From NCBI GenBank assembly GCA_902488555.1, contig CABTWT010000060.1, positions 1 to 6,928 on the forward strand: 6,928 nucleotides of DNA. The letters are read 5' to 3'. Every line of letters begins with the position of its first letter. The stretch's first letter is position 1. Source of the stretch: an uncultured Anaerococcus sp. GTDB taxonomy: Bacteria > Bacillota_A > Clostridia > Tissierellales > Peptoniphilaceae. Position numbers and translations under genes: made by a program. Below the pieces are notes generated by a model. That model saw nothing but the letters and a program-made list of their open reading frames with translations. It was not told where the DNA came from and made no database searches. Positions 4,577 to 6,928 of this stretch are shown in pieces.

Positions 4577-4605
4577 TTGACAAAACGTTTTCTACGGTTT
4601 ATACT
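4577..4605 (+). promoter_or_regulatory. Strong promoter of the acyl-CoA dehydrogenase fusion operon
   Basis: TTGACA (4577-4582) and TATACT (4600-4605) with the optimal 17 bp spacer give a near-perfect sigma-A promoter. An overlapping TATAGT (4605-4610) would need a 22 bp spacer and is less likely. Together with the strong ribosome site at 4629-4636 this predicts high expression unless repressed. The AT-rich stretch from 4520 to 4576 holds no other clear signal. Confidence 0.88.
4580..4593. promoter_or_regulatory. Candidate cre-like operator in the promoter spacer
   Basis: ACAAAACGTTTTCT matches 12 of 14 positions of the CcpA catabolite-response element (TGWAARCGYTWNCW); the two misses are the leading TG. 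It contains the perfect 10-base palindrome AAAACGTTTT (4582-4591). It overlaps the last -35 bases and fills the spacer, where a bound regulator would block RNA polymerase. CcpA control of an acyl-CoA oxidation gene is plausible, but the match is imperfect and rests on one site; another palindrome-binding repressor is equally possible. Confidence 0.33.
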
Positions 4606-4640
4606 ATAGTAAAATAGTAGTGATAAATAAGGAGGTCTCA

Positions 4641-6566
4641 ATGCTATTTAGAACAACTGATGAGCATGAAGCTTTACGTAAAAAAGTAAGAGCTTTTGCT
4701 GAAGAAAAAGTAAAACCAATCGCTTTTGATCTAGATCAAAACAACGAATTTCCTGATGACATTGTAAAAGAAATGGGTGAACTAGGATTTATGGGAATCC
4801 CATATCCAAAAGAATACGGCGGCCAAGGCCTTGATGCAATTTCTTATGCTATAACAGTAGAAGAATTATCAAGAGTTGACGGTGGTGTTGGTGTAATCTG
4901 TTCTGCACATACTTCACTAGGTAGCTGGCCAATATTTGCCTTTGGTACAGAAGAACAAAAGCAAAAATACTTAGTTCCACTTGCTAAGGGAGAAAAACTA
5001 GGTGGATTCGGTCTTACAGAAGAAAACGCAGGTTCAGATGCAGGTGGTACAGAAACTACAGCAGAACTTGACGGAGATCATTACATATTAAATGGCAAAA
5101 AAATATTTATAACCAATGCTCCAAAAGCTGACACATATGTTGTATTTGCAGTAACAACACCAGGTATTGGAACCCATGGTATTTCAGCTTTCATAGTAGA
5201 AAAAGAATTCGAAGGATTTACCTTCTCTGATCACTATGACAAACTAGGTATCAGATCTTCATCTACAGCAGAACTTCACTTTGACAATGTAAAAGTTCCA
5301 AAAGAAAACTTACTTGGCAAAGAAGGTCAAGGATTTAAGATTGCTATGGCAACTCTTGACGGTGGTAGAATTGGTATTGCTTCACAAGCATTAGGTATTG
5401 GTCAAGGTGCTTACGAATCAGCTCTAGCTTATGCTAAAGAACGTGAACAATTTGGTATGCCAATAGCTCACTTACAAGCAAATACATTCAAACTTGCTGA
5501 TATGGCAACTCAACTTGATGCTGCAAGACTTATGATTTATAGAGCTGCAGAACTAAAAGAAAATCATGAAAGATATTCTGCAGAAGCAGCTATGGCTAAA
5601 CAATTTGCTTCAGATCTTGCTATGAAGATTACAACAGAAGCTATCCAACTTTACGGTGGTTCTGGATTTATCAAGGGTGTTGATGTTGAAAGATTCTTCA
5701 GAGATGCAAAAATCACTCAAATCTATGAAGGAACTAACGAAATCATGAGAGTAGTAGTTGGTGCAAGTACGGTTGGTCGTCCTCCCAGAGTTAAAGCAGT
5801 TGGTGGAAAATCTAAACAAGGCCCAATCGCAGGAGTTAGAAAAGGCGAAATCTTTGAGGGAGATCCTAAAGAAGCGGTTAAGAATCTAGTAGCAGCTCTT
5901 AAAAAAGACGGATACGACTTCACAGTAGGTATCGATCCTTGGACACCAGTAACAGAAGCTGAAAGAATAGTAGTAGCTGGTCGTGGTATTGGCGAAAAAG
6001 AAAATATGAAGCTAATAGAAGACTTAGCTTACCAAGCAGGCGCAGCTATATCATCATCTAGACCAGTAGCAGAAACATTAAAATATGTTCCACTAGAAAG
6101 ATACGTTGGTATGAGTGGACAAAACTTCAAAAACAACCTTTACATCGGCGTTGGAGTATCAGGTGCAGGCCAACACTTAAAAGGCATCCGTGATGCATCA
6201 ACAATAGTTGCAATCAACAACAGCAAAAATGCTCCAATCTTTGCAAACGCTGACTACGGTATAGTAGGAGACTTCAAAGAAGTACTACCACTACTAATAG
6301 CAGAACTTGACAATGGTGAAGAAAAGAAACCAGCTCCACCAATGAAGAAAGTAAAAAGAAGCAAACCACGTAAGATGGCTCCAAAAGAAGATGTTTATGT
6401 TGACTTAGGTTCAGGTTATGAATATGACCCAGAAGTTGGTGATCCAACACAAGGTATAGAACCAGGAACACCATTTGATAAATTGCCAGATAGCTGGGTA
6501 TCACCAGTATCAGGTGAAGCAAAAGAAGAATTTATCAAAGTAGAATTCCCAGAGGATAGAAAGTAG
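4641..6566 (+). CDS. Acyl-CoA dehydrogenase–EtfA domain II–rubredoxin-like fusion lacking all Fe ligands
   Basis: A 641-residue soluble three-part flavoprotein; no signal peptide. Residues 1-380 are a complete short-chain acyl-CoA (butyryl-CoA type) dehydrogenase: [12 protein letters not shown] (122-133), [20 protein letters not shown] and QIYEGTNEI with catalytic base Glu363. After a linker, about 438-556 match the FAD-binding domain II of electron-transfer flavoprotein alpha: [14 protein letters not shown] (438-451), SSSRP (471-475), VGMSGQ (489-494), GVSGAGQH (505-512) and ADYGIVGD (537-544). EtfA domain I and EtfB are absent. A Lys/Pro-rich linker (560-583) leads to a rubredoxin-like domain (about 585-636) with [18 protein letters not shown] and SWVSPVSG. 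The four Fe ligand positions, exactly spaced as C-x2-C-x29-C-x2-C, are Asp588, Ser591, Ser621 and Ser624. Start 4641 follows AAGGAGGT (4629-4636). The next gene begins six bases after the stop. Likely electron flow is acyl-CoA to FAD to ETF-type FAD; the final acceptor is inferred. Confidence 0.93.
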
Positions 6567-6572
6567 GTAAAT

Positions 6573-6928
6573 ATGTATACAGTTAGAAAAGTAACAGAAG
6601 ATTTATACTATGTAGGTGGGGATGATAGAAGACTTGCCCTATTTGAGAATATATTCCCAATTCCTGAAGGTGTATCATATAACTCTTACCTACTAATGGA
6701 CGAAAAAACAGTTTTAGTAGATGCAGTAGACTGGGCAATCACACGTGAATATATCATAAATGTAAGCCGTGTTCTTGATGGACGTGACCTAGATTATATG
6801 ATAATAAACCACATGGAACCAGACCACTGTTCTTCAATCGAATTGATGCTAGAAAGATATCCAAACCTTAAAATCATTTCCTCAGAAAAAGGGGTAATGT
6901 TCATGAGACAATTTGGCTATCACGTAGA
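6573..6928 (+). CDS. FprA-type flavodiiron protein, N-terminal part (runs off window)
   Basis: The first 118 residues of an A-type flavoprotein (flavodiiron protein), truncated only by the window edge. What is visible is the start of the metallo-beta-lactamase-like diiron domain: DLYYVGGDDRRLALFENIFP, SYNSYLL, then INHMEPDHCSSIE with the family iron ligands H80-x-E82-x-D84. The later His/Asp/His ligands and the C-terminal flavodoxin domain would lie beyond 6928, so it is unknown whether the protein carries its own rubredoxin or other extension. The family reduces O2 to water or NO to N2O in anaerobes, usually fed by rubredoxin. The start ATG follows a weak TAGGT (6564-6568) overlapping the upstream stop. 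The six-base gap and lack of a promoter indicate an operon with the dehydrogenase fusion, which suggests an electron donor-acceptor pair (inference). Confidence 0.93.
   Translation, partial: MYTVRKVTEDLYYVGGDDRRLALFENIFPIPEGVSYNSYLLMDEKTVLVDAVDWAITREYIINVSRVLDGRDLDYMIINHMEPDHCSSIELMLERYPNLKIISSEKGVMFMRQFGYHV

Follow-up and report, generated by a model that had tools for sequence, protein, structure and literature searches.

A rubredoxin-like domain without its four iron ligands in a putative butyryl-CoA:O2 oxidoreductase of Anaerococcus

The locus encodes a BOOR-type fusion protein and its flavodiiron partner

The window analyzed here is a stretch of 6,928 nucleotides from an uncultured Anaerococcus sp. 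(contig CABTWT010000060.1 of assembly GCA_902488555.1); Anaerococcus is a genus of human-associated anaerobic bacteria. The stretch carries a gene for a fusion protein in which an acyl-CoA dehydrogenase part is followed by the C-terminal flavin adenine dinucleotide (FAD) domain of EtfA, a Lys/Arg-rich linker, and a rubredoxin-like domain that lacks all four iron-binding cysteines. The start of a gene for a flavodiiron protein (FDP) lies directly behind it (Table 1). Glu367, which we take to be the catalytic base of the dehydrogenase part, was invariant in 38 aligned fusion rows, and the same was found for the EtfA residues S473, R474, and H512.

The arrangement recalls butyryl-CoA:O2 oxidoreductase (BOOR), which Bystrom and Wolthers reportedly presented in 2024. 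According to the available text of three articles, the BOOR of Fusobacterium nucleatum is a complex of four fusion proteins (BCR) and four FDPs, which oxidizes butyryl-CoA and reduces O2 to water (PMC12288474; PMC13404960; PMC12630350). The first of these, a review, states in the part available that many obligate anaerobes of Firmicutes encode it (PMC12288474). Like the F. nucleatum enzyme (FN1424/FN1423), the Anaerococcus fusion has the dehydrogenase, EtfA C terminus, and rubredoxin in this order of Pfam domains, and its gene is paired with a flavodiiron gene. The likeness is one of described architecture, as the F. nucleatum protein stands outside our alignment; the Fusobacterium loci from metagenome-assembled genomes (L031 and L042) have cysteine at all four ligand positions. 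Judged by architecture and gene pair, the Anaerococcus fusion and FDP are a BOOR, and they look like an oxygen-detoxifying enzyme. To go by this architecture, the rubredoxin of BOOR presumably takes up electrons at the EtfA flavin and passes them to the FDP. Unlike the BOOR described with rubredoxin in its fusion, the Anaerococcus protein has Asp/Ser/Ser/Ser at the iron-ligand positions, and because the Fe(Cys)4 ligands are missing, we file it as a BOOR variant rather than a plain member. The enzyme type is known; its Asp/Ser/Ser/Ser form is new. No report of an iron-less fused rubredoxin in Anaerococcus was found in literature titles and the openings of abstracts, a coverage that leaves most of the subscription literature aside.

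All four iron ligands of the rubredoxin-like domain are replaced

A sequence-only reading of the window had placed Asp588, Ser591, Ser621, and Ser624 where rubredoxin has its iron-binding cysteines. Reading of the residues and codons bore this out: numbered from the ATG at 4641, the four positions are spaced x2, x29, x2, exactly as in rubredoxin. The three serine codons are indeed all TCA, each two substitutions away from TGT or TGC, and the frame is intact as claimed, being open through residue 641. Rubredoxin-type motifs start at residues 593, 605 (GIEPGTPF), and 615 (LPDSWV), and the Pfam Rubredoxin profile matched residues 592 to 631 with an E value of 2.1e-13 and 50.5 bits (cut-off 23), over profile positions 8 to 47 of 47. 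Because a cysteine-less domain passes the curated cut-off, a Pfam rubredoxin match alone is no proof of an iron site. Cys87 is the sole cysteine of the 641–amino acid fusion protein; therefore, no other cysteine of the chain could supply four ligands. A small tetrahedral pocket shaped for thiolates suits Fe or Zn poorly when its four ligands are oxygens, and the chemistry of these side chains suggests that the window domain should bind no rubredoxin iron.

The ligand loss is genus-wide and has a single origin

A single scan of genome contigs gave 406 confirmed stretches, of which we compared the best 80. Asp-Ser-Ser-Ser stood in each of the 22 loci of Anaerococcus type and four cysteines in each of the 58 others, including the nearest outsider (L022, 80% identical). 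One locus assigned to Peptoniphilaceae (L004) is counted among the 22; its genome is G032 of the genus sample. Among named genomes, the scan's closest was Anaerococcus provencensis (L023), whose best segment is 98% identical. In the genus sample, 29 of 31 genomes carried the fusion, and every one of these (the 22 scan loci and 7 others) had Asp-Ser-Ser-Ser. An EtfA-rubredoxin query matched G026 and G033, the two genomes that had no fusion, once each and weakly (E about 7e-10); they may lack EtfA too. Ten genus regions fetched later, three of them overlapping the 22 loci, also read Asp-Ser-Ser-Ser (10/10). Sequencing error, which had been called very unlikely from the codons, was rejected together with a single odd strain by this recurrence in the 22 loci and in the later regions, 7 of which come from further genomes.

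Outside the genus, 53 of 53 further fusions in the family sample carried four cysteines, as did all 25 further regions from the class, phylum, and order samples (291, 398, and 249 genomes). Two of these regions (G605 and G680, with frames of 237–238 amino acids) were excluded as fusions, leaving 23, and five short rubredoxin-type matches in the wider samples were kept outside the 25. With six overlaps, recognized by a 120-base match, taken off, the distinct outside fusions number 58 + 53 + 23 - 6 = 128. All 128 read four cysteines without exception, although the class and phylum samples were draws searched with an Asp-Ser-Ser-Ser query at E 1e-15, which very divergent cysteine-less relatives could escape. 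The first protein search gave the same two states (13 Asp-Ser-Ser-Ser and 7 four-cysteine proteins among the 20 inspected of 97 matches), and no intermediate ligand state occurred in any aligned row. In a tree built only from the columns before residue 557, and so with the rubredoxin-like domain left out, the 23 Asp-Ser-Ser-Ser rows formed one clade that excludes L022 (Shimodaira-Hasegawa–like approximate likelihood ratio test 100, by a quick method), and a single change of the four-letter state was counted. The tabulation proposed by the sequence-only reading thus gave Asp-Ser-Ser-Ser throughout the genus and four cysteines in every outside fusion examined; the ligand loss is genus-wide in Anaerococcus and of single origin.

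The rest of the domain is constrained

With conservation set at 85% or more of the 58 four-cysteine rows, the domain has 24 conserved positions; Anaerococcus departs from them at four, exactly the ligands. The chance of hitting just these four is 1 in about 10,600, a post-hoc figure. The replacing residues were invariant in 23 of 23 Anaerococcus rows. Serine was kept across the divide between TCN and AGY codons at positions 591 (TCA, TCT, and AGT) and 621 (TCA, TCT, AGC, and AGT); codon 588 was GAT or GAC and codon 624 was TCA or TCT. Among these rows, the dehydrogenase had a ratio of nonsynonymous to synonymous differences (pN/pS) of 0.10, the EtfA domain one of 0.16, and the rubredoxin-like domain one of 0.18, values that are rough because the median synonymous divergence (dS) is near 1. 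When the non-ligand domain positions were set against the dehydrogenase in three divergence bins, their relative rates were 1.69, 1.53, and 1.64 in Anaerococcus and 1.26 (six pairs), 1.92, and 1.97 in pairs of four-cysteine relatives, so that the Anaerococcus positions were slower in two of the three bins.

The six core aromatic residues at 586, 593, 595, 612, 619, and 631 were fixed in 23 of 23 rows, position 586 as Tyr. By ligand spacing, they match Trp3, Tyr10, Tyr12, Phe29, Trp36, and Phe48 of Pyrococcus rubredoxin (residue names from PMC3945938). In the former metal loops, Val623 was present in all 23 Anaerococcus rows and Leu589 in 21 of them; the commonest residues of the relatives are E, A, D, and K at position 623 and N, G, Q, and P at position 589. 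The domain contains no stop, and the fusion frames of the 29 genomes span 641–664 amino acids. The earlier claim that a rubredoxin signature is retained under selection without its metal site agrees with this constraint (20 of 24 positions kept). Together, these comparisons show, at the level of sequence, a domain whose constraint is not clearly relaxed and whose metal ligands were lost selectively.

The domain is predicted to keep the rubredoxin fold

AlphaFold2 modeled the domain alone with a mean predicted local distance difference test score of 85.6, the core block means being 93–96. In Foldseek, the model lay within 0.8–1.1 Å of most free-standing rubredoxins over 50–52 columns among the 50 matches listed, with chimeras and a few other matches above this range. 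In the full-length model (mean 85.0, predicted template modeling score 0.61), the block means were 76–87 over residues 581–630 and then 72 and 62. The superposition on rubredoxin anticipated by the sequence-only reading was therefore obtained in the model, and the Anaerococcus domain is predicted to keep the rubredoxin fold. It resembles rubredoxin (PF00301) in sequence family and predicted fold and differs from it in having none of the four defining cysteines.

The best sequence relatives in the PDB were rubredoxins, the third being 1qcv, entitled "rubredoxin variant PfRd-XC4." Strop and Mayo reportedly described in 1999 this variant that folds without iron, a precedent for a redox-silent domain in Anaerococcus. 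Both proteins are of rubredoxin type without metal-binding cysteines. However, PfRd-XC4 is man-made and free-standing, whereas the Anaerococcus domain arose in nature, is shared across the genus, and belongs to an enzyme; where the alignment shows a ligand position (three of the four), the two proteins have different replacing residues. A desulforedoxin-type domain without an iron site occurs in class III superoxide reductase (Treponema pallidum type); it belongs to another fold family and another enzyme and is likened here by description only. Pfam gave no match to the superoxide reductase (desulfoferrodoxin) active-site domain in the fusion. A further comparison is MASS-delta, which has the rubredoxin fold and is an accessory subunit in a glycyl radical enzyme that activates alkanes; a regulatory and not an electron role is proposed for MASS-delta in the available part of its description (PMC12358834). 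MASS-delta binds a single Fe, unlike the expected state of the Anaerococcus domain.

The flavodiiron partner keeps its diiron ligands and the EtfA domain carries fixed changes

In each of the 22 Anaerococcus loci, the FDP gene came after the fusion gene. In these longer relatives, the residues that we take to be the diiron ligands (H79, E81, D83, H84, H147, D166, and H226) were all kept, seven of seven in each; outside the genus, the ligand counts were 53–57 of 58, a few rows being fragments or wrong frames. The loci thereby share with BOOR an adjoining flavodiiron gene with intact diiron ligands. A move of the rubredoxin to the FDP was rejected, since the FDP frames had 415–422 amino acids in the 21 Anaerococcus loci with a complete frame (that of L020 runs into Ns).

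Fixed changes were counted wherever a residue is conserved in L022 as well as in 90% or more of the four-cysteine rows. The dehydrogenase has 3 among 225 such positions, the EtfA domain 5 among 82, the rubredoxin domain 4 among 21 (the ligands), the FDP 2 among 155, and the two linkers together none among 27. The excess in the EtfA domain over the dehydrogenase (p 0.034) is suggestive only; it is compatible with a re-tuned EtfA flavin. Of its five changes (S445V, G471S, A503G, I506V, and A555E), S471, V506, and E555 also occur in four-cysteine relatives of the family sample, and V445 and G503 do not. Val445 and Gly503 lie within conserved stretches of the FAD domain of EtfA; at these positions the relatives carry Ser and Ala, respectively, with few exceptions. 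The EtfA-domain changes may reflect a re-tuned flavin or looser constraint. The signal for co-evolution of the FDP was weak (the 2 of 155 positions, counted with 2 of the 58 outside rows dropped for a missing motif).

A redox-silent docking domain is the favored interpretation

We tentatively favor the reading that the rubredoxin domain has been redox silent since the stem of the genus, likely serving in docking, and that electrons pass directly from the EtfA FAD to the flavin mononucleotide (FMN) of the FDP; as a whole, this falls just short of even probability, and docking and direct transfer are the parts that we infer. The Fe(Cys)4 site would have been lost on the Anaerococcus stem and the domain kept since then as a folded, redox-silent module, which most likely still ties the fusion protein and the FDP together. 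The path of the electrons would run from butyryl-CoA through the dehydrogenase FAD and the EtfA-domain FAD to the FDP FMN, skipping the rubredoxin relay, and O2 would be reduced at the intact diiron site of the FDP. We favor this reading because only the ligands were lost and because of the constraint, the fold, the intact diiron ligands, and the gene pair. A role in docking or assembly appears the most likely one for the domain; the sequence-only reading had suggested that it might dock to the FDP or to a separate rubredoxin. The fuller picture of a working butyryl-CoA:O2 oxidoreductase with the iron removed from the middle of its chain, the domain acting as a clamp and the EtfA flavin reducing the FMN directly, is a possible one that we hold with less than even confidence. 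If true, the Anaerococcus BOOR would be nature's equivalent of the rubredoxin designed without cysteines. A genus in which only the iron ligands are lost is a natural experiment on whether BOOR needs the iron of its rubredoxin, and the need for the rubredoxin link becomes testable with two recombinant proteins.

Several observations weigh against a redox-silent docking domain. The EtfA domain evolved faster relative to the dehydrogenase in Anaerococcus than in the relatives in all three bins (1.4–2.1 versus 0.9–1.6), and the domain positions other than the ligands were also faster in the bin of lowest divergence (1.69 versus 1.26, the latter from six pairs); both could mean lowered importance. 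Because only 2 of 155 conserved FDP positions changed, there is no clear re-shaped docking site on the partner. The fold prediction is not independent of the cysteines, because 23 of the 38 rows in its alignment carry them, the other 15 being Asp-Ser-Ser-Ser rows. Last, a separate rubredoxin, found by full profile match in all 31 genus genomes, could be the electron carrier.

This last point leads to the strongest rival, in which the separate rubredoxin is reduced by the EtfA flavin and in turn reduces the FDP FMN, and the iron-less domain is a tether or docking site. We consider it unlikely, though deserving attention, and in our ranking of routes direct transfer from the EtfA flavin to the FMN is favored as first and the separate rubredoxin comes second. 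Rubredoxin is a common electron donor of flavodiiron proteins, and its cysteines were present in the three separate rubredoxins inspected, from one Anaerococcus and two relatives (L084, L085, and L086). Five of the 31 genomes (G005, G007, G029, G030, and G036) have it as two tandem copies. However, relatives with an intact fused rubredoxin carry a separate one as well, and its neighborhood is similar in the nearest of them (L085), so that a new gain in exchange for the lost site is not supported. Moreover, rubrerythrin and desulfoferrodoxin-type genes each occur in 30 of the 31 genomes; therefore, the separate rubredoxin has other possible clients.

A less probable alternative is that the complex has ceased to work as a butyryl-CoA:O2 oxidoreductase, its FDP being fed from elsewhere and the rubredoxin-like domain merely stabilizing the assembly. 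The altered electron half would fit, with its four lost ligands, more fixed changes in the EtfA domain than in the dehydrogenase, and an EtfA relative rate above that of the four-cysteine relatives. Yet the invariance of Glu367, S473, R474, and H512 and the retention of an FDP with its diiron ligands behind the fusion in all 22 Anaerococcus loci speak for a coupled complex. In addition, every fusion-bearing genome of the family had at least three EtfA-rubredoxin matches, and the fusion-less G026 and G033 had their one weak match each, among the matches listed.

It is improbable that Asp-Ser-Ser-Ser holds a different, harder cation at the old iron site. One aspartate and three serines, invariant in all 23 rows and not an assortment of residues, speak for such a site; but four oxygen ligands suit the thiolate pocket poorly for Fe or Zn, and hydrogen bonds replacing the Fe-S bonds would explain an invariant polar cluster equally well. 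Neutral decay of an unneeded domain, to which the loss of known ligands and the somewhat faster lowest bin (six comparison pairs) might point, is very improbable and was rejected on the measured constraint, namely, a pN/pS of 0.18, the retention of 20 of 24 conserved positions with the other four changed to fixed residues, no acceleration in the other two bins, and stop-free frames of full length in the 29 genomes, unless saturation of dS (near 1) misleads.

Other features of the locus and related genes

The features of the window and of the related loci are collected in Table 1.

Table 1. Features of the window and, where a locus is named, of other Anaerococcus loci.
Feature	Coordinates	Strand	Basis or remark
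Promoter-like site TTGACA-17-TATACT, 5' of fusion gene	4577..4605	+	Read from sequence
Fusion gene (BCR-like subunit of BOOR)	4641..6566	+	641 amino acids, stop included; ATG 3' of AGGAGG at 4630-4635
Acyl-CoA dehydrogenase part, residues 1-378	4641..5774	+	Glu367 of YEGTNE retained
C-terminal FAD domain of EtfA, residues 437-556	5949..6308	+	Pfam ETF_alpha 84.5 bits at 437-517; solved EtfA relatives
Lys/Arg-rich linker between EtfA and rubredoxin-like domain, residues 557-584	6309..6392	+	Gap separating domain matches
Rubredoxin-like domain without iron ligands, residues 585-636	6393..6548	+	Pfam Rubredoxin, AlphaFold2, Foldseek
First ligand position, Asp588 (GAC) for Cys	6402..6404	+	Codon read; alignments
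Second ligand position, Ser591 (TCA) for Cys	6411..6413	+	Codon read; alignments
Third ligand position, Ser621 (TCA) for Cys	6501..6503	+	Codon read; alignments
Fourth ligand position, Ser624 (TCA) for Cys	6510..6512	+	Codon read; alignments
Flavodiiron protein (FDP)	6573..6926	+	Pfam ODP; HxExDH motif present; window end cuts at residue 118
Second dehydrogenase-EtfA fusion	L147 6762-8474	-	Divergent from second flavodiiron-type gene, 8697-9917 (+)
Second dehydrogenase-EtfA fusion	L149 6589-8298	-	Beside butyrate-pathway-like genes
Second dehydrogenase-EtfA fusion	L148 5626-6855		Split into two open reading frames

Upstream of the fusion gene, TTGACAA was found in 23 of 23 Anaerococcus rows of the upstream alignment and was absent from L022. 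A TTGACAAAACGTTTTC-like core is also present upstream in several relatives, perhaps together with an operator that overlies the -35 box. Anaerococcus genomes carry a second dehydrogenase-EtfA fusion of about 570 amino acids without the rubredoxin part, according to gene labels given by eye. In L023, an open reading frame at 11352-12635 (-), presumably transposase-like, lies immediately 3' of the FDP gene, and none is found at that place in L002. In the window itself, an open reading frame of 164 amino acids (607-1101), with no Pfam match at E 1, follows a glutathione-peroxidase-type gene (132-614).
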